This document shows, piece after piece, positions 16,933 to 34,694 of a stretch of 64,000 bases of DNA. The stretch's first letter is position 1, and every line of letters starts with the position of its first letter. Both the position numbers and the translations under genes were made by a program. Under the pieces are notes generated by a model, which was not told the DNA's origin, did not search any database, and saw only the letters and a program-made list of their open reading frames with translations. The DNA is from Granulicella paludicola (GTDB lineage Bacteria > Acidobacteriota > Terriglobia > Terriglobales > Acidobacteriaceae). The stretch covers positions 1 to 64,000 of the forward strand of contig NZ_JAGSYC010000023.1 of the NCBI RefSeq assembly GCF_025685545.1, in the 5' to 3' direction.

Positions 16933-18042
16933 CTAGTGCTTTGGCGCGACCATCTCCAGAGCGACGCGCACCTGATCCATTACCTCGTCCACCGTGATCG
17001 AGAGCAGGCAACGCTTGCCTTCGTCGACGCAGGTCTCCAGACCGCAGCCTGCGCACTCGACCTTGTGATAGATCACGCGATGCTGCGCGCCCATTGGAAA
17101 CCATTGGCCCGGGATGTTTCTAGCTGCGAACAGAGCGACGCAGGGCGTGCCAACGGCGGCGGCGAGATGCATTGGGCCGCTGTCGTGGCCGACGAAGATC
17201 TGCGCCAACTGCAGAGCAGCTGCGCTCTGGCGCGGGCTGAGGCGGCCGCAGAGGTTGACGACTGGACCGCCGCCGTTCAATCGCCACGCTGTGGCGGCGA
17301 ACTCGCTTGCGGCAGACTCTTCGGGAGCGCCAACTAGCAGCAGCGTGCGGCGCGGGTATTCGTCTGCGATGCGTCCGACCAGCGTGCGCCAGTTCTCTAC
17401 GCCCCAATCCTTTGCCTGGACTTTGGTGCCAACGCAGACGGCGAGGGGACGCTTTTCGAGAGCCTCTGCGCCGATCTGGCGGCGCGCTTCGGCGTTTTCC
17501 TTGTCGTCGAGGTGAAGGTCCCAGCTGGAGATATTGTCGACGCGGGCGTCGCCGAGCTCGCGGATGCAGCGGGCGAGGCGCTCGGCTTCGGGTTCCCAGT
17601 TGTCGACGCATTCGGCGTCGGTGTCGGCGCCGTAGAAGTTGCGCTGCGTGGCTTCGGTTGAGGGAAGTCCGATGATCTGCTTTACGCCGCACCAATCGAA
17701 GAACTTTGCGTCGCGCTCGACTGTTTCGAGGCCGCGCGCGGGGCCGAGGTAGATCACGACCTCCGGTTTCCAGCGGCGGATCGACCAGACCAGCTTCGCG
17801 AGCTCGAACCAGCTGCGCGTGCCTGCGGGATAGCCGAAGTAGCCGCCGATGAGGCCGATTCCACCGAGGACGGCTTCGGCTGCGGGAGCCTTCGAATGGA
17901 CGGGAAGGTTGGTCAGCAGGCGACGATCGGCGTCAGGAAATGCGCGCGCGATGAGGTGCAGGCTGGGGAGCGCAACGACCATATCGCCGAGGCTTCCGAG
18001 GCGATAGATGAGTACGCGGCGCGGCTTCGTACCGATCTCCAA
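16933..18042 (-). CDS. Glycosyltransferase family 9 (heptosyltransferase-like)
   Basis: A 369-aa GT9 enzyme, which transfers heptose from ADP-heptose to the LPS core at the inner membrane. The N-terminus RLGSLGDMVVALP (residues about 14-26) and the C-terminal GHDSGPMHLAAAVGTPCVALF (about 288-308) are hallmark motifs. The best start is a TTG at 18042, because GGAGGGGGG lies about 8 nt upstream and there is no in-frame ATG before the conserved RxGSLGD motif. It is the first gene of the operon with hldE. It could act as WaaF- or WaaC-type; the acceptor cannot be told. Confidence 0.9.
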   Translation of the reverse strand: MEIGTKPRRVLIYRLGSLGDMVVALPSLHLIARAFPDADRRLLTNLPVHSKAPAAEAVLGGIGLIGGYFGYPAGTRSWFELAKLVWSIRRWKPEVVIYLGPARGLETVERDAKFFDWCGVKQIIGLPSTEATQRNFYGADTDAECVDNWEPEAERLARCIRELGDARVDNISSWDLHLDDKENAEARRQIGAEALEKRPLAVCVGTKVQAKDWGVENWRTLVGRIADEYPRRTLLLVGAPEESAASEFAATAWRLNGGGPVVNLCGRLSPRQSAAALQLAQIFVGHDSGPMHLAAAVGTPCVALFAARNIPGQWFPMGAQHRVIYHKVECAGCGLETCVDEGKRCLLSITVDEVMDQVRVALEMVAPKH

Positions 18043-18485
18043 ACAGGTATCCCCCCTCCCCCCCCCTACTTAGTGGCCCAAAGTCTTGATTCGGGGCAGG
18101 ATAGGTCTGGAGAGTTGTGCGCGTAAGAAAGCCGCCAGGTCGTGGAGGCCGGCGGCTGCTCTGTTGCTCTATTTCTATTATAGCGAGCGGGAGAGGGTGA
18201 ACATGCAATTACTTTTGGGCGCGAAAAGCCGCATGGTTGCTGGGGATTTCGAGTTTTCCGAGTTTTGCGGGGGTTGACAGCGTTTGGAGGTAGCGGCGGG
18301 TCGAGATGCAGATTCCTCCGCTTCGCTACGGAATGACAACAAAAAAGCTGCGCTACCGAAGGACAACAAAGCTTCGCTACGGAAGGACGACAAAGCTGCT
18401 ACCGAAGGACAACAAAGAGGGGGGCGAGGGATGGGTTCGTCGCCCACGTCTCAGAAGCGAGACGTGGGGCACCCGAGTGGTTGGC
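18043..18485. other. Intergenic region between the LPS operon and alaS
   Basis: No gene is supported here. The first 80 nt hold a C-rich tract that acts as ribosome binding site and leader for the heptosyltransferase. The middle contains GATTCCTCCGCTTCGCTACG-type repeat sequence followed by a short tandem array (separate entry). The remainder, up to the alaS stop, shows no clear promoter or terminator. Confidence 0.6.
18320..18416. repeat. Tandem array of four ~24-nt repeats
   Basis: Four adjacent units start at 18320, 18347, 18371 and 18395. The consensus is GCTKCGCTACSGAAGGACAA followed by CAAA. The first unit is slightly longer (extra A residues) and the last lacks a few bases. Units differ by a few bases in an alternating fashion (GGAAGG / CGAAGG). 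There are no spacers, so it is not a CRISPR. The left flank (GCAGATTCCTCCGCTTCGC) looks like an interspersed repeat I associate with acidobacterial genomes. Confidence 0.75.
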
Positions 18486-21400
18486 TTAGCCGAGGAGGTC
18501 GCTGACGATGTCTTTGGCTGCCGAGAGGGTGGCGTCGAGGGCAGAGGTATCGCTGCCGCCGGCTTCGGCGAGGTCGGGACGACCGCCGCCTTTGCCGCCT
18601 ACCTTGGCGGCGAGAGCGCCGACGATCTTGCCGGCCTGCAGCTTGCCAGTGAGGTCCTTGGAGACGCCGACGATGAGCGAGACCTTGCCTTCGTTTGCGG
18701 CACCGAGGATGACTACGCCGGAGCCGAGCTTGCCGCGCAGTTCGTCGACGAGGTTGCGCATCTGGGACTTGTCGAGGCCGTCGACGCGCTGGGCGAGGAC
18801 CTTGATGCCCTTGACCTCAACGGCTGAGCCTGCAGCGTCAGCGGTTGCGGCGGAGGCGCTCTTCATCTTGAGCTGCTCCAGCTCGCGGCGGAGCTTCTTC
18901 ATCTCTTCTTCCTGCGCGTTGACGCGGGAGCGAAGAGCTTCGGCGCTGAGATCACTGCCGCCGACGAACTGGCTGGCGACCTTTGAGACTTCGGCATCGC
19001 GACGGAAGAGATCGAGAGCACCGGTACCGCTGACGGCTTCGACGCGACGGACGCCAGAGGCGACGGCACCTTCGCCTACCAGCTTGATGAGACCGATCTC
19101 GCCGGTGGCGGAGAGATGGGTGCCGCCGCAGAGTTCGGTGGAGAAGTCGCCGATCTTGACGACGCGGACACGGTCGCCGTACTTTTCGCCGAAGAGGGCC
19201 ATCGCTCCGTACTCGTGAATGGCTTCGTCGATTGGAACATCGACAAAGGTCTGCACGGTGGAGTTTTTGAGGATCTGAGCGTTCACGATTTCTTCGATCT
19301 CGCGCAGCTCTTCTTCGGCGACGCCGGTGAAGTGCGAGAAGTCGAAGCGGAGACGATTGGGGTCGTTGAGCGAGCCAGCCTGCTTGACGTGGGTGCCGAG
19401 CACCTGACGCAGAGCGGCGTGCAGGAGATGGGTGCCGGTATGGTTGCGCATGACGGCGGAGCGGACCTCGCCGTTGACCTGGGTGTCGACGGTGTCGCCG
19501 ACGGCGATGGTCTGCTTGGCGATGACAGCGTGGGCAAAGACGCCCTGGACGGGCTTTTTGCAGCCGGTGACCTCGGCGACGATGGTGTTGTGGTCGCCGG
19601 AGTAGAGCCAGCCGACATCGCCGACCTGACCGCCGGAGTCGGCGTAAAAGCTGGTGGCGTCGAGGACGACCTCGCCGGTTTCGCCGGGCTGGAGGGTGGC
19701 GACACCGACGCCTTCTTTGACGAGAGCGAGGACCTTCGCGCCATCGACGCGGAGGGCGGAGTAGCCTTCGAATTCGGTCTTGGGGAGTTCGCGGTAGACG
19801 GGGGCTGCGGACTTTTGATTGCCGCCTTTCCAGGAGGCGCGGGCACGGGCTTGTTCTTCTTCTTTGGCGCGCTCGAAGCCTTCGAGGTCGAAGTCAAGAC
19901 CCGCGTCACGTGCGGCATCCTGAATGAAGTCAAGGGGAAGCCCGAACGTTTCGTAGAGATTGAAGGCGTCTTTACCTGCATAAACAACGGGCTCACGCAG
20001 GATGTGATTCGTGCCTCCTTCATCGCCCCAATATTCACCGTTGAAGTCCGGTTGGTACTTCTCTTGAATGTTGTAATAGGCCTTATTCAGCGCGCTTACT
20101 TTTGCAACCTGCTCTTGAGATGAATCCTCTCCCGGTTTCGGGTGAGGTCCCGCTTCGTGAGCCGCTTCGGCGCGCTTGAACTCATCAAATAGTTTCTTGC
20201 GCTCGATCAATGCCTCTAATTGCTCATCGAGTTTTCCAAGAGCAGATGCAATCACCCGCGCGAACTGCTGCTCTTCTGCGAGGACGACCTTGGCCACGCG
20301 CTCTGCTGATTCCTTCAACTCCGGATACGCCGCAGCCATCTCATCGCGGACGGCGTAGACCATCTCGTGCATGAAGGGCTTTTCCTGACCGAGGAGGCGA
20401 CCGTGGCGGATGCCGCGGCGGAGGATCTTGCGCAGGACGTAGCCGCGGCCTTCGTTGGCGGGGAGCACGCCGTCGGAGATGAGGAAGGTGCTGGCACGGG
20501 CGTGGTCGGCGATGATGCGGAGCGAGGCTGCGTGCTTGTCGTCGGAGACGGCGAGGTGGGCGATGTCGGCGGGGGTGAGGGTGGCAGAAAGCGGTTGGGT
20601 GGTGGCGGCGCGGTCATGAGCGTCGGGGTTCTTCGACTGCGCGTCACGATGAAGCTGTGACGCTTCGCCCAGAATGACGGCATTCGTGGGGGTGTCGGCA
20701 GGGGAAAGTCCCTCAGGGGCTAAAGCCCCTCCTTCAGGTTGCGCAGTAACGGACGGGCTGAAGCCCGTCCCCTTCAAAGCGGGCGAAGTCCCGTTACCTG
20801 CGCCGGAGTGGGTGAGGCGGGCGGCGGCGGCGATGAGGGGGGTGAAGAGGTCAGACTCGTAGTTGGAGAGCTTGCCCTGGAGAACGGCGCTGAGGCGTTC
20901 GAGGCCCATGCCGGTGTCGATGCTGGGCTTGGGCAGTGGGGTGAGGGTGCCGTCGGAGCTGCGGTCGAACTGCATGAAGACGAGGTTCCAGATTTCGACG
21001 TAGCGCTGGTCGTCCTGCGGGAAGGGTTTGTCTTCACCTGTTTCGCTGGCAGCGAAGCCGAGGTCGTAGAAGATTTCGCTGCAGGGGCCGCAGGGGCCGG
21101 TGTCGCCCATCTGCCAGAAGTTGTCCTTGGCGGACATCTCGAAGATGCGTTCCTTGGGGACGCCGATTTCGATCCAGAACTGCTCGGCCTCGTTGTCGCG
21201 CGGGACAGAGTCTGTGCCTTCGAAGATGGTGACGTAGAGGCGGTCCTTGTCGATGGCGAACCAGTCGGGCGAGGTGAGGAGCTCCCAGGCGAAGGCGATG
21301 GCGTCGCGCTTGAAGTAGTCGCCGAAGCTGAAGTTGCCGAGCATCTCGAAGAAGGTGTGGTGGCGGCGGGTGAAGCCGACGTTTTCGAGATCGTTATGCT

Positions 21401-21623
21401 TGCCGCCGGCGCGGACGCACTTCTGGCTGGTGGCGGCGCGGGAGTAGGGGCGGACCTCGGCGCCGAGGAAGACGTCTTTGAACTGGTTCATGCCAGCGTT
21501 GGTGAACAGCAGCGTCGGGTCGTTGGTGGGAACGAGGGAGGACGAGTGCACGCGGCGGTGCTGCTTGGTTTCGAAAAACCTCAAAAACTCTTCACGAATC
21601 TGGTTGCCGCTCAAGTTGCGCAT
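18486..21623 (-). CDS. alaS: Alanyl-tRNA synthetase with two large insertions
   Basis: A 1045-aa AlaRS, which charges tRNA-Ala and proofreads Ser and Gly. The start at 21623 ([13 protein letters not shown]) matches the family; a TTG 33 nt upstream is unlikely. Visible parts: class II catalytic core with [12 protein letters not shown] and GMGLERL, tRNA-recognition part ([25 protein letters not shown]), editing site (HTGTHLLHA and ELCGGTHL) and C-terminal coiled coil with a glycine-rich end. The protein is about 170 aa longer than the usual ~875. One insertion (residues about 274-339) is encoded by palindromic repeat DNA; a second (about 474-549) sits in lower-GC, differently coded DNA. Both keep the frame open. 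Confidence 0.95.
20607..20804. repeat. Palindromic repeat element inserted in-frame in alaS
   Basis: Three hairpin-forming palindromes lie within this stretch: GCGTCAC/GTGACGC (20641-20647 and 20657-20663), AGGGGC-TAAA-GCCCCT (20715-20730) and GGACGGGCT-GA-AGCCCGTCC (20751-20770). The first, with flanks, resembles an intergenic copy near 30,409-30,431. The region is read through in alaS as a low-complexity, Pro/Ala/Gly-rich segment absent from typical AlaRS between the catalytic core and tRNA-recognition helices. Exact borders are estimated from the protein break points. Confidence 0.75.
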
Positions 21624-21705
21624 AGAGATTAAGTTTATCAGTGCAACGGATGGCAAAAACTTCCCCGAGACTCTTCGCGTTCAGGTAGCGTCATATCCAT
21701 TAGCT

Positions 21706-22452
21706 ATGATCCTGGCCCCTCACGCGCTCGCTTTCCTACTCGCCGCACCGGCGGCTCATGCTTCTGCGGCGCACCATGGCGGCAATTCTTTTGTGCATTT
21801 TCTGTTTCGGTTTGGGCTGTTCGGGTTGCCGTTGATTTCGGCGGTGGACAGCTCGTTTGTGCCGCTGCCGATTCCGGGTGTGACGGATATCTTGATCATC
21901 GTGTATGCGGCGAGCAAGGCAAACCTGTTCCTACTGGTGGCGCTCGCGACGATCGGGTCGGCGGCGGGTGGGCTGTTTTCCCATGCGGCGGGGCGGGCCG
22001 GTGGGCTGGCGTTCCTGGAGAAGCATGTGTCACCCGCGATATTGAAGCGGGTGACGGAATGGATGGACAAGCACGCGATCCTGGCGGTGGCTCTGCCGGC
22101 GCTGCTGCCGCCGCCGATGCCGCTATCGCCGTTTGTGCTGGTGGCGGGGGCGGCGCATATGTCGCGCAGGAAGTTCATGACGGCGTTTACGATCAGCCGC
22201 TTTGTGCGGCACTGCCTGGCGGCGTGGATCGGCGTGCATTATGGGCGGCATGTGATCCATCTGTGGAACCAGTTTTCGGCAAAGTGGGGCGTGACGATTC
22301 TGGTGGTGCTGTGGACGACGATCATTCTGTTTACGGCGATTGCGATCTGGCAGCTGTATAAGACGTCGCGGGATTTGAAGCAGGGTGGGGCTTCGAGTGG
22401 AGCCGGTTCGCAAGGAGCGAAGTCTCAGGGAGCTAAGCCGCAGCAGGCATAG
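21706..22452 (+). CDS. DedA/VTT-type membrane protein
   Basis: A 248-aa integral membrane protein with a likely N-terminal membrane segment and four or five more (residues about 35-60, 75-95, 120-150, 165-190, 200-225). The segment FGLPLISAVDSSFVPLPIPG and the glycine-rich stretch GSAAGGLFSHAAGRAGG fit the VTT (DedA/YqaA) family, which is involved in lipid flipping and membrane homeostasis. The start at 21706 is chosen as the first ATG after the alaS promoter region; reading from further upstream runs antisense to alaS. The C-terminal tail is Gly/Ser/Gln-rich and overlaps the convergent next gene by 20 nt. Confidence 0.75.
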   Translation: MILAPHALAFLLAAPAAHASAAHHGGNSFVHFLFRFGLFGLPLISAVDSSFVPLPIPGVTDILIIVYAASKANLFLLVALATIGSAAGGLFSHAAGRAGGLAFLEKHVSPAILKRVTEWMDKHAILAVALPALLPPPMPLSPFVLVAGAAHMSRRKFMTAFTISRFVRHCLAAWIGVHYGRHVIHLWNQFSAKWGVTILVVLWTTIILFTAIAIWQLYKTSRDLKQGGASSGAGSQGAKSQGAKPQQA

Positions 22453-23122
22453 GGGTTCGGGGGGCGAACTTGCGCTTGTAGTAGGCGGTGGTGAGGACGA
22501 TGGCGGGGACTCCGAGGGCGGTGGGCCAGAGCCACAACCACAGATGGTTTCCGAAGAGGCGAGGCAGCGTGACGACGCTGAAGGCTGTCCACGCTGCGAT
22601 GTAGCTGCCGATAAAGTTGCCGAGGTGGGTGTACCACCAGAACATCTTTTCGGTGGGTTTGCGGAGAAAGCTTTTCATCTGGACGAAGGCGAGGCGCATG
22701 CCGAGCAGGCCGAAGACGATGGCAACGGGGCCCATGTTCTGGACGACGGCGTTGTGGAAGGCTCCGAGATAGGCGAGCAGGAAGCTGGAGGCAAAGGTGA
22801 GGCCGCCGGCGATCCAGTCGATAGGTTTGGCGTGGCCGCCGCGGGTGAGGTCTTTGAGCTTGAGCACGCGATAGCCGGAGAACGCGGCATAGAAGCTGAA
22901 GACCGCAACCATCGCAAGGAAGAGCACAGGACGATAGAGCGCCATGGGGAGCGCGGTGATGGCGACGCCGCCCATCGCCCAGAGATAGACCATGCCCCAG
23001 CGCTTATGCAGCTTGCCGCCTTTGGCGGTGGCCAGCGCGACGGGTGCGAGCAGGAAGGAGCCGAAGCCGCAGGCGATGTGTATGGCTAGCAAGGTCTTCA
23101 TCCAGAGTGGATCGGATGCCAT
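22433..23122 (-). CDS. Predicted multi-pass membrane protein (DUF2306-like)
   Basis: A 229-aa protein with about six or seven membrane segments. The first helix (LLAIHIACGFGSFLLAPVAL, residues about 11-30) followed by GGKLHKRWGMVY has the pattern of DUF2306-type membrane proteins (H-x-x-x-G and H-R-x-x-G). A basic C-terminus (YYKRKF) follows the last helix. Its function is not known. It is convergent with the DedA-like gene and its 3' ends overlap by 20 nt. It starts about 80 nt from the SRP RNA gene, on the opposite strand. Confidence 0.65.
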   Translation of the reverse strand: MASDPLWMKTLLAIHIACGFGSFLLAPVALATAKGGKLHKRWGMVYLWAMGGVAITALPMALYRPVLFLAMVAVFSFYAAFSGYRVLKLKDLTRGGHAKPIDWIAGGLTFASSFLLAYLGAFHNAVVQNMGPVAIVFGLLGMRLAFVQMKSFLRKPTEKMFWWYTHLGNFIGSYIAAWTAFSVVTLPRLFGNHLWLWLWPTALGVPAIVLTTAYYKRKFAPRTPMPAAA

Positions 23123-23200
23123 GGTTCACCTCGGGTGTTCGGTGTGCGGCTGTCTGCAGACACTATATCCACAAACGTGGGCAATGCTAAACTTGTCCAT

Positions 23201-23298
23201 GTGCCGGGTCCTACGCGACGTATTCCCGCCAACCCCGCCAGGTCCGGAAGGAAGCAACGGCAACGGGCCAATATGGGTGCAGTAGGGAAACCCGGTAC
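23201..23298 (+). ncRNA. ffs: Small signal recognition particle RNA (4.5S type)
   Basis: A 98-nt RNA. The ends GTGCCGGGT (23201-23209) and ACCCGGTAC (23290-23298) pair almost perfectly (one G-U). The conserved domain IV is present: CCAGGTCCGGAAGGAAGCAA with the GGAA tetraloop and the Ffh-binding internal loop, closed by strands with GGGTGCAG and AGGGAAACC. A TAAACT box about 7 nt upstream may be the -10 element. It is the universal RNA of the SRP, which targets nascent membrane proteins. Confidence 0.95.
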
Positions 23299-23465
23299 AC
23301 TTCCCCCAACTACAATTTCAGCTTTCATGCCGTTTCGGTGCCTCGGGGTTATCGACAGGATGAGGCTGTGTGGTCCTTGTTGAGCAGCGTTGAGTGGTCG
23401 GAACGCGATACCATTCACATTGTTGTTCTTTTGCCTAATGCTGTTTGTACCTGGAGGTTGAAGTT

Positions 23466-24482
23466 TTGAGTCTGTCGTTGAAGCCCCGCCACTCGGTCCG
23501 TGCCAAGATTTCAGCTGTCGGAGCGTATGTTCCGCCTCGCCTGCTCACCAATGCGGACCTGGAGAAGATGGTGGCCACCAACGATCAGTGGATTACTGAG
23601 CGGACCGGCATCCGGGAGCGGCACATCGTCGAGCCGGGAACGCCGACGAGCGATCTGGCGACGGAGGCGGCGAAGATCTGCCTGGCGAACCGCGGGATTG
23701 GGGCGGAAGAGGTGGATGCAATCATCGTGGCGACGGTGACGCCGGACATGATGTTTCCGGCTACGGCCTGCCTGGTGCAGGCGAAGCTGGGAGCTACGAA
23801 GGCCTGGGGTTTCGATCTGTCGGCGGCGTGCTCGGGGTACCTGTACGCGCTGCAGATGGGGGCGAAGCTGGTGGAGTCGGGCGCACACAAGAAGGTGCTG
23901 GTGATCGGAGCGGACGTGATGAGCTCGATCATCGACTATACGGACCGATCCACGTGCATTCTGTTCGGCGACGGTGCGGGAGCGACTCTGATTGAGCCGT
24001 GCGAAGAGGGTGAGGTCGGCTTGATCGATTACCTGCACGAGGTGGATGGCTCCGGCGCGAGCGCGCTGAATATGCCGGGTGGCGGCAGTCTGCATCCGGC
24101 GACGCATGCGACGATCGATGCCAAGCAGCACTTTGTGCATCAGGATGGCGGCTCGGTATACAAGGTGGCGGTGCGCAAGATGGCGGAGCTGGCTGAAGGC
24201 GTGCTGAAGCGGAACGAGATTACGGGCTCAGACATCGACTGCTTTATACCGCACCAGGCGAACCGCCGCATCATCGAGGCGACTGCAGACCGGCTGGGGA
24301 TGCCGCTGGAGCGGGTGGTGATCAACATCGACCGCTACGGCAACACAACGGCGGCGACGATTCCTCTCGCGATGGATACGGCGATCAAGGAAGGCCGCCT
24401 GAAGAAGGGCAGCCTTGTGCTGCTGGCCAGCTTTGGTGGCGGATACACGATCGGGTCGACGCTGCTGCGCTGGGAGTTCTAG
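23466..24482 (+). CDS. fabH: Beta-ketoacyl-ACP synthase III (FabH)
   Basis: A 338-aa condensing enzyme that starts fatty-acid synthesis from acetyl-CoA and malonyl-ACP. The Cys of the active site is in [11 protein letters not shown], the His in PHQANRR and the Asn in [14 protein letters not shown]; the C-terminus ends in [14 protein letters not shown]. Start: TTG at 23466 with GGAGG at 23453-23457 (8-nt spacer). An in-frame TTG at 23445 would lie upstream of this binding site. It lies downstream of ffs, on the same strand. Confidence 0.95.
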
Positions 24483-24549
24483 CGTCGCGTCGGTAGAGTA
24501 TTTGCATTTTGGGTCGGACCTTCGGCCCTCTGGTTCCGTTGCGACTCTG

Positions 24550-24572
24550 AACCCAGGCCTGCGGCCTGGGTT
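24550..24572. terminator. Palindromic hairpin between fabH and the MutS-like gene
   Basis: AACCCAGGCC (24550-24559) and GGCCTGGGTT (24563-24572) are exact inverted repeats with a 3-nt loop, between two convergent genes. No long T-run follows on either strand. It may act as a bidirectional terminator or be one of the short GC-rich interspersed palindromes seen elsewhere in this window. Confidence 0.5.
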
Positions 24573-24628
24573 GTTATGTGACCGCGCCGTTGGCGCTAAA
24601 CAAAAAAATCCGACTCGTCGAGCATGGG

Positions 24629-26419
24629 CTATTCCATCAGACCCAGCAGGCGCACTATCGCCAGAGCGTTGGTAGTGCGGTTGACGCCGGGTTTGAGCAG
24701 GTAGTCGAAGCCCAGCGGGTCGTCCTCGTTGGGGCTTGCCATGTGGACGTTGCTGCCGCGCAGTTCTTTGATCTCGGCGAGTTCTGCCAGGGCGAGATCG
24801 TGCGTGGAGAGAGCGCCGATAGCTCCAGTGTGGAGCAGGCCGCGAACGACGGCTCCAGCTGCTTCGCGCCGGTCGGCAGAGTTGGTGCCACTCAGGATTT
24901 CATCGATCAGGAAGAGACATTGCGAGGGGTTCTCGCGAGCGAGAGTAAGCAGAGAGCGAAGGCGTTCGACCTCGGCGAGGAACTTGGATTTGCCTTCGGC
25001 GAGCGAGTCGCGAACGGCGAGGGAAGCTCCTACGCGCAGGACACTGAGGCGCAGCTTTTTTGCAGGGACTGGAGCGCCTGCGAGGCCTAGCACCGTATTG
25101 ATGCCCACGGTGCGGAGCAAGGTGGATTTGCCTGCCATGTTGGAGCCTGAGATGAGCAGGAATTGCGTGTCGCCGCTGAGACGGACGCTGTTTGCCACCG
25201 CCTTACCACGCGGCAGCAGAGGGTGCCGCATAGCGACGGCGTCGAAGACAGCAGAGCCTTCGACGATTTCGGGGTAGACGTTTTGATCGTGTTCTGCGGC
25301 GTAGGTTGCGAGGGCGAGCAGGGCTTCGAATTGAGACCACGCTGCGACCCATTGCCGCATCGGTTCGCCGTAGCGTGCCTTCCAGTGGCGAAGCGCGTAG
25401 GCGGCGTGCGTGCCTCCGCAGAGGATGACGGATAGCGTGGAGAACCATTCCTTGTCGCGATGCTCGACGACCATCAGCCAGCGTTCGAGGTAGCGGAGCA
25501 CCTCGTCCTGATTGACGCAGGCGCGTTGCAGTTCGAGGAGCAGGTCCGATTCGAACCTGGCTTCCTGCAGAATCTTAAGGCCACGGCGAAGGATGGCGGT
25601 TTGTCCGAGGAGTTTCTTGGCTGCCTTGAGTTCCTTGACGACGTCGGGCTTGAGCCAGAGGCACAACATGCCCTGCGCCAGCAGCAGCGATTCGATGAAG
25701 CGGAGATACTTTGTGAAGGCTCCATAGCGAAGTTCGCCGAGCAGGAGAAGCGAGATCCAGGCGATGTTGACGGCGACCAGCAATGGGCGAATCCATGGCG
25801 CGGGAGCGGGGGTTTCTACGTCGAGCCACTGCTCGTAGGTCTCTGCGGGGATCTCTTCGAACTTCGAGGCACCGAGCAGGGCGACGCGCTCGCGTAGATC
25901 GAGCGCAGGGGTTAGTTCTTTGACGGCTTCTTGTCGGCGGCGCGTCTCCGCTGCGGTGGTGGAATCGAGCAGCAGACCGACGAGCGCCTTCTGGCCGATG
26001 GCGGTGCGTGTCGTTGCCAGCAGACCTACGAGAGACTCGGGGCCGACGACATCGAGATCCCAGGCGCAGAGATGGTCGTAGGAGACGAGAGCTTCGCCAG
26101 TATGTCCGCTCTGGGTTTCGACTTCGTTGACGCGGTCGAGCGCGGTTCCGTAGAGGCTCGAGAGGCGCATGGCCTTCTGCTCCTGCGCGCGGAGCATGCG
26201 CCAGTAGATGCCCACGGCCGCTAATGGTACGAGGACCGCGAGAACGGCCCAGTAACTGCCGTGCGCGAAGATCGCAAGGTAGCCCTGTCGGCAGGCCATC
26301 GCTACGAGTATCGCTACGCCGAAGCCATACATATCACCTCGGGTCTTAAGCCGCGCAAACTCTCCGTTCGCAGCCGACCTGCGCCGCTCGTACTCACCAA
26401 CGATCTGTTCTGCCATGTG
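24629..26419 (-). CDS. Membrane-anchored MutS-family ATPase
   Basis: A 596-aa protein with the MutS core and ATPase domains. Two hydrophobic stretches near the N-terminus (residues about 31-48 and 51-70) suggest membrane anchoring, unlike MutS1 or MutS2. The C-terminal ATPase has Walker A (GSNMAGKSTLLRTVG), the DSLAEGKSKFLAE segment, Walker B (LFLIDEILSGTN) and the STHD signature. The mismatch-binding domain and Smr endonuclease domain are absent. The start at 26419 is the ATG of MAEQIVGEYE; an upstream in-frame extension is poorly conserved in style. Such proteins are annotated simply as MutS-related, and their role is not known. Confidence 0.8.
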   Translation of the reverse strand, partial: HMAEQIVGEYERRRSAANGEFARLKTRGDMYGFGVAILVAMACRQGYLAIFAHGSYWAVLAVLVPLAAVGIYWRMLRAQEQKAMRLSSLYGTALDRVNEVETQSGHTGEALVSYDHLCAWDLDVVGPESLVGLLATTRTAIGQKALVGLLLDSTTAAETRRRQEAVKELTPALDLRERVALLGASKFEEIPAETYEQWLDVETPAPAPWIRPLLVAVNIAWISLLLLGELRYGAFTKYLRFIESLLLAQGMLCLWLKPDVVKELKAAKKLLGQTAILRRGLKILQEARFESDLLLELQRACVNQDEVLRYLERWLMVVEHRDKEWFSTLSVILCGGTHAAYALRHWKARYGEPMRQWVAAWSQFEALLALATYAAEHDQNVYPEIVEGSAVFDAVAMRHPLLPRGKAVANSVRLSGDTQFLLISGSNMAGKSTLLRTVGINTVLGLAGAPVPAKKLRLSVLRVGASLAVRDSLAEGKSKFLAEVERLRSLLTLARENPSQCLFLIDEILSGTNSADRREAAGAVVRGLLHTGAIGALSTHDLALAELAEIKELRGSNVHMASPNEDDPLGFDYLLKPGVNRTTNALAIVRLLGLME

Positions 26420-26561
26420 CTCAGGATAGCCTTTATGGCGAAGACAGATGCAAACGCAGAACCCCCTTCGGGGATGACGAGCAAAGATGACAAACAAAAA
26501 GCGAGGGCAAGAGCGCCGGGAACGCTTGCCTGTTTCGAGAGGAAACACATACCCTTGCGCC

Positions 26562-27596
26562 ATGCGATTGTTCCTCTTACCGCTGGCCCTTTGCGCAACG
26601 TCTGCGCTTGCTCAGGATGTCCACGTGAAAGTCGATCCGAACGGCGGCGGCAGCATTGCCAGCACGGATAACTTCCCTACGATTCAGAATGCACTCGATC
26701 ATCATCCGTTTGCGCCGCCGGGGTATCGCGTGGTCATCTCGATTGCGCCGGGGGTGTATCACGAGCGCATCGTTGTGACGCAGAACCATAGCGACATCAC
26801 GCTGATCGGTCTTGGGAGGTCGCCGGAGGATGTGGTGATTACGAATTCGCTGAATGCGAAGACGGCTGGCGGCACGTATGTGACGGAGACGGCCGAGATC
26901 AATGGCACGGCGTTCGAGGCGGATAATTTGACGTTCGAGAACGCTGCGGGGAACACCGGGCAGGCGGTGGCGATTGCCGTGCGGAGTGATCGTGCAGTGT
27001 TCAAGCATGTGCGCTTTCTGGGGCACCAGGACACGCTGTTCGCCGACTATGGGCGGCAGTATTACGTGGACAGCTACATCGAGGGTGGGGTGGATTTTAT
27101 CTTCGGCAATGCGGCTGCGGTATTCGATCGCTGCGAGATTCATGCGAACGGCCCAGGGTATCTGACGGCGCAGTCTCGCACCGATGACAAGCAGTCAACG
27201 GGGTATGTGATTACGCACTCTCGGGTGACGACCTCGCTTGAGGCGACGCCTCCTCCGGCTGCAGGAGAGGCTGGTGCGGCGTCTACTGCTGCGGCGAAAA
27301 ACATGACGGCACTGGGTAGACCGTGGCGACCATTTTCGAGGGTGGTGGTGATGCATACGGAGCTGCCAGCGCAACTGAATCCGGCAGGGTATACGGTGTG
27401 GAAGCGTGGCGATGCGGAGCCTCCGCAGGCGTATTACGCGGAGTATCAGAACTCTGGCGATGGGTGGCAGCCGGAGAAACGCGTGAGCTGGGAGCACATG
27501 CTGACTGCGAAGGAGGCGGCTGCTTTCGAGCCGCGGGTATTTCTTCGTGGCAGCGACAAGTGGGACGCCGTTGCTGCGGCGGCGAAGCTGCCTTAG
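26562..27596 (+). CDS. Pectin methylesterase (CE8), secreted
   Basis: A 344-aa enzyme that de-esterifies pectin. The N-terminus MRLFLLPLALCATSALA is a signal peptide. Family motifs of the beta-helix active site are present: GQAVAI (conserved Gln), GHQDTLF (catalytic Asp), VDFIFGNA (second Asp) and LGRPWRPFS (conserved Arg/Trp). The start at 26562 is chosen for the signal peptide; a GAGAGG lies about 20 nt before it, so a few upstream codons are possible. It is not in an operon with other pectin genes here. It fits a plant-litter degrading acidobacterium. Confidence 0.9.
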   Translation: MRLFLLPLALCATSALAQDVHVKVDPNGGGSIASTDNFPTIQNALDHHPFAPPGYRVVISIAPGVYHERIVVTQNHSDITLIGLGRSPEDVVITNSLNAKTAGGTYVTETAEINGTAFEADNLTFENAAGNTGQAVAIAVRSDRAVFKHVRFLGHQDTLFADYGRQYYVDSYIEGGVDFIFGNAAAVFDRCEIHANGPGYLTAQSRTDDKQSTGYVITHSRVTTSLEATPPPAAGEAGAASTAAAKNMTALGRPWRPFSRVVVMHTELPAQLNPAGYTVWKRGDAEPPQAYYAEYQNSGDGWQPEKRVSWEHMLTAKEAAAFEPRVFLRGSDKWDAVAAAAKLP

Positions 27597-27680
27597 GCTG
27601 CCAGAATCTGGTAGAAATGCAGAAGGCAGGAAGCAGACCTCTATTGCATGCTTCTTGTTTGCTACGCCCTGTTTCCGCTT

Positions 27681-28004
27681 ATGCATCACATTATTGCCGC
27701 TATCAAATCCGGAACCGATCCTGTTGCGCCGCTTCCGCCGGGAGCCTTTACGCGTCAGCTTGATGAGGCGATTTACTGCCCGAAGTGCAGCGTGTATTAC
27801 CTGCTGCATGCCGACTATGAGGCCTCGGTGAACCGATTCTTCGAGCAGGAGACTCGGCGGCATCTTTCGATTCTGAAGAAGGCTGTGATGATGGGTCACG
27901 AACTCGATCATCGCGTGACGCACTTCGAGACGAATGGCGTGACGGTGGTTCGGCATGTGCCAGAGAAGATCGAACTGCCACCGATGCCTCGGCGGGTGAT
28001 GTAG
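27681..28004 (+). CDS. Small conserved-looking hypothetical protein with CxxC
   Basis: A 107-aa soluble protein. It has a CPKC motif (residues about 33-36) followed by an aromatic stretch (SVYYLLHADYE), a helical middle (ETRRHLSILKKAVM) and a basic Pro-rich end. A single CxxC could bind zinc with other residues, but no full zinc site is seen. The ATG at 27681 and one at 27648 are both possible; the latter would add a hydrophobic leader. I do not recognise the function. Confidence 0.5.
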   Translation: MHHIIAAIKSGTDPVAPLPPGAFTRQLDEAIYCPKCSVYYLLHADYEASVNRFFEQETRRHLSILKKAVMMGHELDHRVTHFETNGVTVVRHVPEKIELPPMPRRVM

Positions 28005-28024
28005 GGTGTTGGATCAGGAAGTGT

Positions 28025-28135
28025 CTAACGAATCGTTGCGACCTCAATGGTGGGTCCAGCCGCAGCTGTCGCAGACTGTTGGGCTACGGCACTTCCGCCA
28101 AGAGTCAACGTCAACGCCAACAACATCATCCGCAT
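28025..28135 (-). pseudogene. Truncated 5' remnant of a secreted TIGR03435-like gene
   Basis: On the minus strand an ATG at 28135 preceded by GAGG starts a signal peptide (MRMMLLALTLTLGGSAVA) followed by QQSATA and PTIEVATIR, then a TAG at 28025-28027. The last residues match the start of the mature TIGR03435 soil-associated proteins (FEVATIKPS type), a large secreted family in acidobacteria as I recall it. The gene is cut off after 36 residues, and the following DNA is antisense to the 107-aa gene. It is most likely a decayed copy whose 3' end was lost. Confidence 0.5.
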
Positions 28136-28261
28136 CCGCACACCTCACTTCTACTCTAAGACGCGCAGGAGCGGCATCGGTCTCTTATCGGGACGGAGGC
28201 ACCCGTCCGCAGGGATCGTTCGAACACGAAACCCATATAAAACCTGCTAAAATAAACCTCT

Positions 28262-29857
28262 GTGAGCCTTACCCCCACCCTCGAAATCCCAGTCGCAGAG
28301 TCTGAGCAGAAAGCCCGCCCCAAGGTCGGCTTCGTCTCCCTCGGCTGCCCCAAGAACCTCGTCGACTCCGAGGTCATGATGGGCCTGCTCCATCGCGGTG
28401 GCGCGGAACTGACGCCGCGTGCGGAGGATGCCGAGATTCTGGTGGTGAACACCTGCTCCTTCATCGACTCTGCCAAGCAGGAGTCCGTCGACACCATCCT
28501 GGAGATGGTGCAGCACAAGATTGGGAATGGCGGCAAGGCGCAGAAGCTGATCGTTGCAGGCTGCCTGGTCGAGCGCTACCGCGACGAGATCCGCAAGAAC
28601 ATTCCCGAGGTCGATGCGGTGGTGGGCACCGGCGAGCTGGAGGCGATCCTGGAGGCTGCAGGGTTGAACCGGCCAACGGCTGCCGAGAACAACTCGCCTT
28701 TCGCGATTTTGACGACCGCTCAAATTGAGCGCCATGCTTCTGCGGTGAATCAACATTCGCGGCCTGAAGGCACCGGCGACCAGATCGTCAACGAGACCTC
28801 CAGCCGGCCCGAGGGCGATGCCCGCGAACAGGCTGGCCGCTTCTCTCGCGAGGCTTGGGATGGTGCGACGGCGGCCCTGCCGAGCTACCTGTACTCAGAC
28901 GAGACGCCGCGTATTTTGACCACGCCGCGCGCTTCGGCGTACATAAAGATCGCGGAGGGCTGCGATCATCCGTGCAGCTTCTGTATCATCCCGCAGCTAC
29001 GCGGGAAGTTCCGATCGCGGCCGCTTGCCTCGATCGTTGCTGAAGCAAAGTCGCTGATTGCGCAGGGCGTTCGCGAGATTACGCTGATCGGTCAGGATAC
29101 GACCTGCTACGGCGAGGACCTGCCGAAGAGTGAGACTACCGGGAAGCGGCCGGAGCTGGCGGACCTGCTCGACGCGCTGGCGCCGCTGCCGGGGCTGAAG
29201 TGGCTGCGCTTCTTGTACGCGTATCCGAACAAAGTCACCACGCGCCTGCTGGAATCGATTGCGAAGCACGACAGTGTCGCGAAGTATCTGGATGTGCCGC
29301 TGCAGCATGCGAGCGCGAATGTGCTGCGTCGCATGAAGCGCGGAGGCTCTGCGGATCGCTTTCTGCAGATCATCGAGAAGGCGCGTTCGATCGTGCCAGG
29401 CCTGGTGCTACGGACGAGCTTTATCGTCGGCTTCCCAGGCGAGACCGAAGACGACTTCGAAGAACTGATGGCGTTTATTCAGGCAGCGAAGATCGACTGG
29501 CTTGGCGTGTTCAGCTACTCGGATGAAGAAGGTGCGGGCGCGTTCGAGTTGGACCAGAAGGTGCCGAAACGGACGATTGAATCGCGCCGCCGCAAGTTGA
29601 TGAAGTTGCAGCAGAAGATCAGTAAGAAGGCACGCAAGCAGTGGATTGGGCGTGAGCTCGACATCCTTGTTGAGGGCGAGAGCGAAGAGACGGAGCTGCT
29701 GTGGCAGGGCCGCTCGCTCGATCAGGCACCGGAGATCGATGGCAAGGTGCTGATCAACGATTTTGGGCCGCATGAGGTGCTGGTACCCGGCACGTTCTAC
29801 CGCGCCGAGATCACTGAGTCGCATGATTACGATGTTGTGGCTCGCATCATCGAGTAG
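28262..29857 (+). CDS. rimO: Ribosomal protein S12 methylthiotransferase RimO
   Basis: A 531-aa radical-SAM enzyme that methylthiolates Asp of ribosomal protein S12. The N-terminal cluster cysteines are visible (GFVSLGCPKN, NTCSFID, AGCLVERY). The radical-SAM CxxxCxxC is in GCDHPCSFCI, and a TRAM domain ends the protein. The start is GTG at 28262, directly before the conserved N-terminus. It is about 80 aa longer than the usual ~440-450: residues about 140-215 hold a Ser/Gln/Glu-rich insert between the first domain and the radical-SAM core. Confidence 0.93.
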   Translation: MSLTPTLEIPVAESEQKARPKVGFVSLGCPKNLVDSEVMMGLLHRGGAELTPRAEDAEILVVNTCSFIDSAKQESVDTILEMVQHKIGNGGKAQKLIVAGCLVERYRDEIRKNIPEVDAVVGTGELEAILEAAGLNRPTAAENNSPFAILTTAQIERHASAVNQHSRPEGTGDQIVNETSSRPEGDAREQAGRFSREAWDGATAALPSYLYSDETPRILTTPRASAYIKIAEGCDHPCSFCIIPQLRGKFRSRPLASIVAEAKSLIAQGVREITLIGQDTTCYGEDLPKSETTGKRPELADLLDALAPLPGLKWLRFLYAYPNKVTTRLLESIAKHDSVAKYLDVPLQHASANVLRRMKRGGSADRFLQIIEKARSIVPGLVLRTSFIVGFPGETEDDFEELMAFIQAAKIDWLGVFSYSDEEGAGAFELDQKVPKRTIESRRRKLMKLQQKISKKARKQWIGRELDILVEGESEETELLWQGRSLDQAPEIDGKVLINDFGPHEVLVPGTFYRAEITESHDYDVVARIIE

Positions 29858-29883
29858 GCGATTCGGAGTAAGCTGAGCAGACC

Positions 29884-30345
29884 ATGGCTGACCTCTCTTC
29901 GAGCTTTCGCGATCTTCCTATGTTTCGGCTTGCGGGGATTCGCCGTTTCCACGATCTGGCGACTGCGCCTGCGACGATTCCCGATCAATGGCACGACCTG
30001 CACGCGAGTGGACTGCCCGGGCTGGCTGACGCGACCGTCACCTATGGCGCTACGTGCCAGGTGGATATGCCGAACCAGCGGCTGGAATATCTTGCAGGGT
30101 ACGAGGTGCTGGACTTCGAGAACATTCCGGTGGATGCACGCATGATCGTCCCAGCGGCGCACTATGCAGTCTTCGAGATCGCGACGGTGGCGGAGGTTCG
30201 GCCGTTCTGGCAGCAGTTTTTTGAGGAGTGGCTGCCGGCATCGGGTCATCAGCCTGCCGATACGCCCAACTTCGAGCGCTATGACGAGCGGTTCGATCCG
30301 GTGACGCGCGGGCCGTTTGAGATTTGGATACCGATCCAGCGGTGA
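29884..30345 (+). CDS. GyrI-like effector-binding domain protein
   Basis: A 153-aa protein. The sequence GIRRFHDLATAPATIPDQW, the YEVLDFENIP strand pair and the C-terminal RGPFEIWIPI with Pro fit the GyrI-like / AraC-type effector-binding fold, a small-molecule binding beta-barrel. There is no DNA-binding domain. The gene sits 26 nt downstream of rimO on the same strand and may be co-transcribed. The ligand is unknown. Confidence 0.65.
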   Translation: MADLSSSFRDLPMFRLAGIRRFHDLATAPATIPDQWHDLHASGLPGLADATVTYGATCQVDMPNQRLEYLAGYEVLDFENIPVDARMIVPAAHYAVFEIATVAEVRPFWQQFFEEWLPASGHQPADTPNFERYDERFDPVTRGPFEIWIPIQR

Positions 30346-30360
30346 GGTTTTGGGGACAGG

Positions 30361-30450
30361 CTCGTGCTTCGCACATCGCTACTGCAAATACTGAGGTTTC
30401 TCCACTGCGCATCGCGATGAAGCTGCGATGCTTCGGTCGAAATGACAGGC
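30361..30450. repeat. Interspersed palindromic repeat, related to the alaS insert
   Basis: GCATCGC (30409-30415) and GCGATGC (30425-30431) pair around the loop GATGAAGCT. The same loop, with a stem carrying paired changes, occurs in alaS (20641-20663). The flanks ACTGCGC on the left and CTTCG and AATGAC on the right are shared. The left part (30361-30400) reads as TGCTTCGCACATCGCTACTG, which is not in the alaS copy. The element is in noncoding DNA between convergent genes. Confidence 0.7.
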
Positions 30451-30499
30451 TTATGGGAAGAGGAGGAAGTCAGCTTTCACTCTTCACAAAGTGGAAAAG

Positions 30500-30525
30500 A
30501 AAGGCCCCCATTTGGGGGGGCCTTT
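30500..30525 (-). terminator. Intrinsic terminator of the 112-aa gene
   Basis: AAAGGCCCCC (30500-30509) pairs with GGGGGCCTTT (30516-30525). On the minus strand the hairpin is followed by CTTTTCC, giving a U-rich tail directly downstream of the minus-strand gene. Confidence 0.7.
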
Positions 30526-30555
30526 CTCACATCTCAACTTCGCTTTGCAGCGAAA

Positions 30556-30894
30556 TTACATGCCACCGTTGCCGGTGTTGTGAGCTACAGCTGCCTTGTA
30601 GCCCTGGGTGAAGGTGCTGCGGTATGCATCCTTGTCAGCTCCCTTTACGGGCGGGTGGTTGTAGAGGTAGCTCTTGGAGGCTTCGACGGGGCGCTTGGCA
30701 ACCGTGTCCAGCTTGGCGGCTTCGATGCCGTCCTTGTAAGCCTGTGCCTGCTCTGAACCTGCGGGGGGCGTCATCCAGTCTTCCTGGGCCGCTGCCTGTG
30801 TCTGGTTCTGAGAGCTCTGGGCCGCCATCATCATCGGGGCGGTCATCATCGTCACTGCCATCAGTGACGTAGCGATACGGGTCATCATCTTCAT
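30556..30894 (-). CDS. Small secreted protein (unknown)
   Basis: A 112-aa protein with an N-terminal signal peptide (MKMMTRIATSLMAVTMMTAP and MMMAA, Met-rich, cleavage near residue 25), then a Gln/Ala/Ser-rich mature part with a Lys-Asp-Ala pattern (GADKDAYRSTF). The motif SKSYLYNHPPVKG (about residues 73-85) may be a conserved core. An AAAGG site 8 nt before the ATG supports the start. It is monocistronic with its own terminator. No function is recognised. Confidence 0.7.
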   Translation of the reverse strand: MKMMTRIATSLMAVTMMTAPMMMAAQSSQNQTQAAAQEDWMTPPAGSEQAQAYKDGIEAAKLDTVAKRPVEASKSYLYNHPPVKGADKDAYRSTFTQGYKAAVAHNTGNGGM

Positions 30895-31177
30895 GGGTCT
30901 TGCCTTTTACTGCATTGATACCGTCGACGTCGTGGTCGAGGCTTGTTGCTGGGCGGTGATCTGCACAATCAAACAGACGAAAGATACGCCCGCAGAGTTG
31001 CCATTTGCAAGTGGAATCTCAGTAAGAAACACTCTTTTAATGCAAAAGGCTTCGCAGTAATCGTCTCGCGATGCGATTTAGCGATTGCGGCTGGACTCTA
31101 TTCCGATCTGGGCGACGTGGATTATCCTTGTAGATGCCGTCGCGGGTGCCTCCCTCCTGCGACCTTAGGAAATCGCC

Positions 31178-31408
31178 ATGCCAGCTACTAAGCCTATCTT
31201 TTGCCCCATTTGCCGAAAACTCGTTGAGCCAACGAACGAGGACTTTCCGTTCTGCTCCGACCGATGCCGCGTGATCGATCTGGGCAAATGGGCCTCCGGA
31301 GACTACAAAATCAGCTCGCCGATCCTCGATCCCGACCTTCTAGAAGATCTGGAGCATGCGCAGCAGCAGAACCACCCGTTTTCGGACGATTCGAAGTGGA
31401 AGAATTAG
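31178..31408 (+). CDS. yacG: Zinc-binding DNA gyrase inhibitor YacG
   Basis: A 76-aa protein with four zinc-ligand cysteines: CPIC (residues 9-12) and CSDRC (about 28-32), followed by RVIDLGKWASGDY. This is the YacG family, which binds gyrase B. An AGGA site 8 nt upstream supports the start. It overlaps the following pgpA by one base, so the two form an operon. Confidence 0.9.
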   Translation: MPATKPIFCPICRKLVEPTNEDFPFCSDRCRVIDLGKWASGDYKISSPILDPDLLEDLEHAQQQNHPFSDDSKWKN

Positions 31409-31902
31409 TGGCTACCCCGGTCGCAATCGGTCGTAAGACTCGCTGGGCATGGCTCACGGGGACATTCTTTGGCGCGGGCTATCTGAAGCCTGGGCCGGGC
31501 ACCTATGGCAGCGTCGCCGCGATGCTGCTCTGGTATGCGGCGGCGCACGCGATTCCGTCGAGCGCGACGGCGCTTTCGATCGCGACGGCAATTTCTGCTG
31601 TGGTGGTGACGCTGATCGGGATTCCGGCTTCGACGATCGTCGCCCGGGAATCGGGGCGCGAGGATCCTGGCTTTGTGGTCGTGGACGAGGTGGCGGGGCA
31701 GCTTATTGCGCTGATCCCGATGCACGCAGACTGGCGGCATGCGCTGATCGGGCTGCTGTTGTTTCGGCTTCTGGACATCTTCAAGCCGTGGCCGATACGC
31801 CGTTTCGAGGCGCTGCCGGATGGGACCGGGATTATGCTCGATGATGTGGCTGCCGGGTTGATCGCGCTGGTTCTGGGGGCGGTGGCGCAGCACTACGCCT
31901 GA
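31408..31902 (+). CDS. pgpA: Phosphatidylglycerophosphatase A
   Basis: A 164-aa membrane enzyme that removes phosphate from phosphatidylglycerophosphate to make phosphatidylglycerol. Motifs: GTFFGAGYLKPGPGTYGS (residues about 19-36), the catalytic-type Asp/Glu cluster ESGREDPGFVVVDEVAGQ, and DIFKPWPIRRFE with DDVAAG later. Two or three membrane helices are present. The start is the GTG that overlaps the yacG TAG. Starting further upstream would add an unlike, charged N-terminus. Confidence 0.85.
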   Translation: MATPVAIGRKTRWAWLTGTFFGAGYLKPGPGTYGSVAAMLLWYAAAHAIPSSATALSIATAISAVVVTLIGIPASTIVARESGREDPGFVVVDEVAGQLIALIPMHADWRHALIGLLLFRLLDIFKPWPIRRFEALPDGTGIMLDDVAAGLIALVLGAVAQHYA

Positions 31903-32037
31903 CAATCACAGGCTAGGGTTGAATTTTCTCCGCCGCAGGCCTAGACTGTTACTAGCAGACGAGTTTGTTCTGCCGCAGTCGTCCAAAGTATCGGCGACAT
32001 AGCCGTGAACGCACCGGCAAAAACGGCGGAGTAGATG

Positions 32038-34481: not shown

Positions 34482-34492
34482 CCCAGTATTTG

Positions 34493-34520
34493 AAGGGGAC
34501 GGACTTCGGTTCGTCCCTTT
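34493..34520 (+). terminator. Stable cUUCGg hairpin between nusA and infB
   Basis: A 12-pair hairpin (34493-34504 with 34509-34520) closes on a C(UUCG)G tetraloop and ends in TTT. The U-tract is short, so termination is probably partial, or it acts as an RNA-processing site in the operon between nusA and infB. Confidence 0.55.
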
Positions 34521-34694
34521 CATGCCCTGAAAGCGTGGGGCAGACCCGGATTCCCGGCCTTAATTGGCTGAAATCTTAATCATTTCAAGGGATAATAGCC
34601 TTGAACCCAACTTCTGCTCGATTGAGGCTCTATGAATAGCTAAGTGCCGCAGGAACAGACATCGCCCGGCTAACGCCGGAACCAGAAGGATTGA

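Follow-up and report, generated by a model that had tools for sequence, protein, structure and literature searches.

Two Families of Palindromic Repeats in an In-Frame Insert of Alanyl-tRNA Synthetase in Granulicella, One of Them Linked to RAYT-Like Transposase Genes

Previously, RPEs have been described as palindromes that lie in frame within conserved protein genes of Rickettsia, as well as between genes, and are tolerated there (PMC2229807, in the passages on these elements). REPs have been reported inside ORFs of several bacteria outside the phylum considered here, including ORFs for tRNA synthetases and tRNA pseudouridine synthases, and two Xanthomonas recB genes carry them at about the same site. 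The same source lists acidobacterial TIRYT genes, i.e., tyrosine transposase genes with their own inverted repeats, and gives GGGGWSAS as a motif common to only some TIRs (PMC3733652, sections drawn on here). Furthermore, TnpA-Y1 classes and REPtrons, in which an HuH/Y1 gene lies between hairpin repeats, have been set out along with REPs in frame in genes, and class 3 TnpA-Y1 of Acidobacteria shows atypical structures (PMC6006769, relevant sections). Granulicella aggregans appears in a table of PMC12306157. In-frame palindromes in Rickettsia and intragenic REPs in other phyla are, thus, already established. The present study describes an insert in the alanine--tRNA ligase (AlaRS) of Granulicella paludicola whose DNA consists of such repeats.

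An insert in AlaRS and the DNA that encodes it

The window, i.e., the whole stretch of 64,000 nucleotides analyzed here, carries alaS on the minus strand (18486..21623), identified from its ORF and family matches. The frame is uninterrupted from 21623 to 18486 and gives a product of 1046 aa that matches tRNA-synt_2c, tRNA_SAD, and DHHA1 (gene names throughout denote NCBIfam/Pfam matches, or are by eye where so marked). It is the one full alaS found in this genome (G000, 4.96 Mb); another match covers residues 647-932 with only 29% identity. Between the motifs ESDLFTP and RIIAD, this AlaRS has 118 aa, versus 43-70 aa in those members of the GTDB genus, sampled by 28 genomes, in which both ends are readable (they are unreadable in G019 and G006). 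The protein is about 70 aa longer than that of most genus members between the catalytic and the tRNA-recognition parts. This lineage-specific insert (about residues 273-350; 20574..20807, minus strand) is absent or replaced in the genus members examined, none of which shares it.

Five residues of E. coli AlaRS (272-276 of PDB 3hxu) correspond to residues 273-364 here, and the insert site is where the E. coli enzyme has a short connector leading from the catalytic part to the tRNA-recognition helices. In an AlphaFold2 model built from 41 sequences (mean pLDDT 82, pTM 0.55), the longest stretch with pLDDT below 50 comprises residues 275-346, flanked by modelled helices at 261-271 and 351-359; pLDDT of the insert is about 30. 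The insert is predicted to be disordered and is probably a floppy loop.

The insert DNA consists of two palindromic repeats of different families, type A and type B, both antisense to alaS. Type A (53 nt; 20627..20679, plus strand), recognized by nhmmer, copies, and covariation, is read approximately as residues 314-333 and holds one hairpin at 20641..20663 on the plus strand, with stem GCGTCAC/GTGACGC (arms 20641-20647 and 20657-20663). Type B (about 77 nt; 20708..20784, plus strand), recognized by copies and covariation, is read as residues 282-305 and holds two plus-strand hairpins: one at 20715..20730 (AGGGGC/GCCCCT; arms 20715-20720 and 20725-20730) and one at 20751..20770 (GGACGGGC/GCCCGTCC; arms 20751-20758 and 20763-20770). 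Only 1 of 200 dinucleotide shuffles folded as well as the insert strand (z -2.93). With default settings, an inverted-repeat search found no pair within 20300-21100, the hairpin arms being just 6-8 nt. The palindromes are unconvincing by themselves; copy number and covarying stems are convincing. In Rfam, a search of 18000-32000 of the window found no family at the insert, its only match being the bacterial small SRP RNA at 23202-23300 on the plus strand.

A first-pass annotation made from these letters had proposed an insert of about 65 aa translated from a palindromic repeat element. The insert is present with about 70 extra aa, and the repeat is indeed a repeat, but two of different families instead of one. 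Its three palindromes are the three hairpins above, the frame stays open as it stated, the position between catalytic and tRNA-recognition parts is borne out by the alignment with 3hxu, and its guess of a surface loop agrees with the predicted structure.

A second hypervariable AlaRS segment lies at 19990-20220 of the window (about residues 469-544). It is single copy in the genome and spans 49-129 aa between the same flanks in the genus rows, several of which are wholly different. A repeat origin was considered for this segment and rejected, as 19960-20260 matched itself only.

Repeat families and their RAYT-like neighbors

The alaS copy of type A matched the repeat near 30,361-30,450 (nhmmer E 1.6e-6), an intergenic type A copy at 30393..30447 on the plus strand; this is the resemblance that the first-pass annotation had pointed out, and further copies could be mapped for both families. 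Type A has at least 21 matches in this genome (40 of 42 candidates scored). The stem differs by copy, GCGTCAC/GTGACGC in alaS and GCATCGC/GCGATGC near 30,393, and 5 of 7 pairs have two-sided changes among 14 aligned copies (from 21 rows, minus one duplicate core and six rows whose length differed).

A covariance model, applied to 150 candidates per genome (of 1213 in this one), gave type B at least 82 matches here and detected it at least once in 24 of the 28 genomes of the genus. Across 17 copies, 82.4% of cells are paired in the first hairpin and 98.5% in the second, where three pairs have two-sided changes. For each of the two families, none of 500 shuffles reached the covariation score, although these shuffles leave the relatedness of the copies in place. 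Among the 38 copies of at least 65 nt that were examined, 22 lie outside confirmed genes, eight are ambiguous, and eight lie in conserved genes. Type B is, as REPs are, a short, high-copy, mostly extragenic palindrome. The tetranucleotide GT[AG]G or CGTC at the hairpin foot is absent from the 17-copy consensus (by eye); therefore, type B is not classed as a canonical GTAG/CGTC REP. The TIRYT motif GGGGWSAS is also absent from it, the complement of type B being GGGGACGG (by eye). A partial type B copy lies at 34489-34540 of the window on the minus strand (E 2e-4). A third palindrome, type C, was recognized by repeat matches just past the alaS stop (18442..18479, plus strand); its family also occurs inside alaS of another genus member, G011, which has 24 matches.

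The genome has three Y1_Tnp matches. One Y1 ORF (L151:2109-2684) has inverted type B copies on both sides, carries the motifs DHIH and YIRKN, and lies between a tyrS-like and a phytoene-desaturase-like ORF (both names by eye). At a second locus (L152), a B-like copy lies about 70 nt off, with E 0.03 by single query and 1.4e-8 by profile. Separately, 50 Y1 loci were sampled in the genus and in five other genera, and the 38 with full flanks were analyzed. The zone made up of the Y1 match and 300 nt to either side, 27% of the area, received 26 of 38 merged B-type matches (p 1.3e-7; 13 of 38 loci) and 9 of 11 type C matches (p 2.5e-4; five loci), p values that count tandem copies as independent. 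The Y1 genes are of several kinds, and 25 of the 38 loci have no type B nearby. Specifically, the Y1 genes C36:71858-72157 of G109 and C106:7004-7294 of G140 are flanked by the variant found in their own alaS, and the G011 Y1 gene C45:84987-85301 has on each side a copy of the type C present in alaS of that genome. Types B and C are linked to RAYT-like Y1 genes, and movement of type B by a RAYT would be in keeping with this arrangement. A RAYT link was rejected for type A: the 50 loci hold one match, more than 1 kb distant, and none lies in or within 300 nt of a Y1 match at the 38 fully flanked loci. Separately, at L151:2537-2684 the 3′ end of the RAYT-like ORF reads through the downstream type B copy, which would be its C-terminus.

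The alaS loop and other conserved genes in relatives

Two genus members, G005 and G010, have a type A copy at the alaS site, sense in orientation where the copy here is antisense, and type A is multi-copy in both (27 and 40 matches, respectively); G011 carries type C at this site. G006 was considered as a further type C carrier and rejected. Its alaS match stops at residue 271 and is followed by type C and type A copies, and the rest of the gene was found neither on its contig nor elsewhere in this incomplete genome. Either the contig was misjoined in assembly or the gene is broken, and this alaS was, therefore, left out of the carrier count. At 1720-1830 of L166 (G006:C232), the type C copy and the type A copy come directly after the end of the match.

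In a family survey, 143 of 160 genomes had an alaS match. Loop length was surveyed at 110 alaS loci, five of them from the genus including our own, and 100 were measurable; the measuring pattern failed at L297, L302, L307, L308, L327, L337, L342, L354, L359, and L364. The loop has 41 aa at 34 of the 100 loci and exceeds 50 aa at 15. A type B variant (G[HN]D[FL]SR...) is present in five of these 15 long loops, all in other genera: G060, G074, G109, G140, and G156, whose genomes have 59, 37, 45, 20, and 28 matches to the variant family, respectively. The alaS copy itself is among the matches listed in four of them, and G074 was placed by its sequence. Long loops L326, L339, and L343 hold GC-rich palindromes of further kinds (by eye), and in L299, L300, and L368 no repeat was seen by eye. 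A type C-like piece lies inside a short loop of 41 aa in G089 and G039. On a quick tree of 117 rows, built from the flanks only (about 225 residues) and with our own A + B row labelled B, six type B carriers need six changes, three type C carriers need three, and two type A carriers need two; the pieces of G089 and G039 are alike, as are those of G005 and G010, and each pair could be a single event. The G140 loop (L260) also contains a 15-aa unit, TVSGHDFSRSDSDTS, in two full and one partial tandem copies.

Besides alaS, seven other conserved genes of this genome carry type B within the protein or between its domains, with positions given in the stop-to-stop frame of family-matched proteins. 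These are valS (750-774 of 1096), metG (407-433 of 839), hemC (446-470 of 574), moeA (241-265 of 479), ligD (626-650 of 972), and, in opposite orientation, mnmG (273-298 of 735) and a nei/fpg-type protein (104-128 of 363). Three synthetase genes, alaS, valS, and metG, are thus included. Relatives have in-gene type B in queA (two elements), glmS, mnmG (G003), hemC, mnmE, rimO (two in G026, one in G012), hemD (two genomes), an LHR-type helicase, and a hydantoinase/carbamoylase-type amidase. The translated type B profile by which they were found matches in 17 of 28 genus genomes and, being translated, is biased toward one frame. Several ORFs with type B were set aside: L223, L225, and L155 matched no family and are uncounted; in L224 (PP2C), L164 (RsmI), and L247 (RibF) type B precedes the family match and could lie outside the gene; the L242 (MiaB) copy lies beyond the match; and L158, L239, and L252 have weak family matches. 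The family-library matching left out L162 and L257. By eye, an A-like peptide, ISAVILSEAAEPRSRRTP, accompanies the two type B copies in RimO of G026 (L163:746-2803). Four genomes share the short repeat peptide SASQQVS, also by eye: two have it in MnmG beside type B, and the other two in AlaRS (L161, L162, L283, L288).

The two halves of type B stand in one register in all seven measurable in-gene copies, versus 8 of 20 others (Fisher p 0.007), a small test in which gene-breaking copies would fall among the others. All seven are within the DNA-based match list; the eighth in-gene copy was unmeasurable, and the eight ambiguous copies, left out of the test, were in register in 4 of 7 measurable cases. 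Since in-gene copies are recognized via their open frame and other registers can also be open, this agreement fits selection for translation of in-gene type B rather than proving it.

Origin of the insert and comparison with known systems

We consider, with a probability of roughly 85%, that two small interspersed palindromic repeats left the insert as their in-frame remnant, that type B was moved by a RAYT, and that the insert is tolerated as a disordered loop. Type B, with its two hairpins, would be a non-autonomous REP-like element, most likely mobilized as single-stranded DNA by the RAYT-like HuH/Y1 transposase encoded beside it. Type A, with one hairpin, would have entered the same alaS loop besides type B. 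The landing site of both would be the loop that follows the final catalytic-part helix and precedes the tRNA-recognition helices. Frame-keeping copies would have survived as a disordered loop while alaS remained functional. The full-length AlaRS, insert included, is presumably translated, and the loop would be near-neutral.

Alternatively, recruitment might have turned the repeat into a useful peptide, with a loop that improves or regulates AlaRS through tRNA contact or partner binding and a site refilled by selected insertions. Repeated filling of one loop would suit such recruitment, with B-type in six, C-type in three, and A-type in two of the 117 rows and as many changes as carriers, as would type B in alaS, valS, and metG. 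However, the loop sequences differ and occur in both orientations (type A antisense here, sense in G005 and G010), short loops are the rule (41 aa in 34 of 100, above 50 aa in 15), and the insert is predicted by AlphaFold2 to be disordered; we regard recruitment as unlikely. It appears very unlikely that the insert goes untranslated, whether cut out of the RNA or passed over by ribosomes bypassing a hairpin. Yeast mitochondria do have hairpin bypass elements, and the insert strand folds better than nearly all of its shuffles (1 of 200 as good). On the other hand, no Rfam family lies at the insert within 18000-32000, and a skipped element would not need the one register seen in 7 of 7 in-gene copies versus 8 of 20 others, although recognition of in-gene copies by open frames makes register no clean test of skipping.

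An old lineage-specific AlaRS domain with a chance likeness to repeats is, in our view, extremely improbable. The single-copy segment at about residues 469-544 also differs among relatives, and AlaRS is thus variable in this group; this would leave room for such a domain. Against it, repeats present in many copies in this genome match the insert DNA, and the site in relatives holds other sequences or short loops. Of the two outcomes that would have spoken against the first-pass annotation, an ancient domain and a conserved insert common to all close relatives, neither was found; the insert was seen in none of the other genus members examined. Judged from sequence, the insert appears to be a REP-like element read in frame and not an ancient domain; it is called REP-like because type B flanks RAYT-like Y1 genes.

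A broader proposition is that in Acidobacteriaceae RAYT-driven palindromes generally supply new in-frame segments: types A, B, and C would have entered the AlaRS loop independently, in both orientations and in at least seven genera, with conserved translation, tRNA-modification, and haem genes repeatedly taking such repeats up. We hold the chances of this to be evenly balanced. With our findings, protein-coding palindromes become known in a large soil-bacterial family, one such repeat family is tied to a transposase gene, and a natural series becomes available in which a single essential enzyme loop is filled by different repeats. Two questions thereby become testable: are in-frame selfish repeats neutral or of use, and why do genes for translation, tRNA modification, and repair keep appearing as targets?

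As RPEs do, type B lies in frame within conserved protein genes, and the parallel with Rickettsia palindromes in an essential gene, drawn by the first-pass annotation, is seen at the DNA level. This likeness concerns in-frame position and palindromy. In contrast, RPEs are 105-146 bp long, and type B (about 77 nt) and type A (53 nt) fall outside that length class; the passages on RPEs name no mobilizing enzyme (PMC2229807), whereas type B is RAYT-linked and occurs in Acidobacteriaceae. Like the repeats in the sections of PMC3733652 drawn on here, type B is a palindrome in many copies that occurs close to tyrosine transposase genes and, in some cases, inside ORFs; the gene classes named there overlap the translation, tRNA-modification, and repair targets. 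Unlike those REPs, type B has no GTAG or CGTC tag. Neither an acidobacterial intragenic repeat nor AlaRS is named in these sections, and they describe no loop that different families have entered in different genera. A palindrome in AlaRS is unmentioned in the titles and abstract openings returned by our literature searches. By its motif, YIRKN of the L151 ORF is nearer the class 2 patterns (e.g., YIxxNP) than class 3 as given in the relevant sections of PMC6006769. What is new here is an untagged, RAYT-linked repeat family in Acidobacteriaceae and a single AlaRS loop entered by different families.
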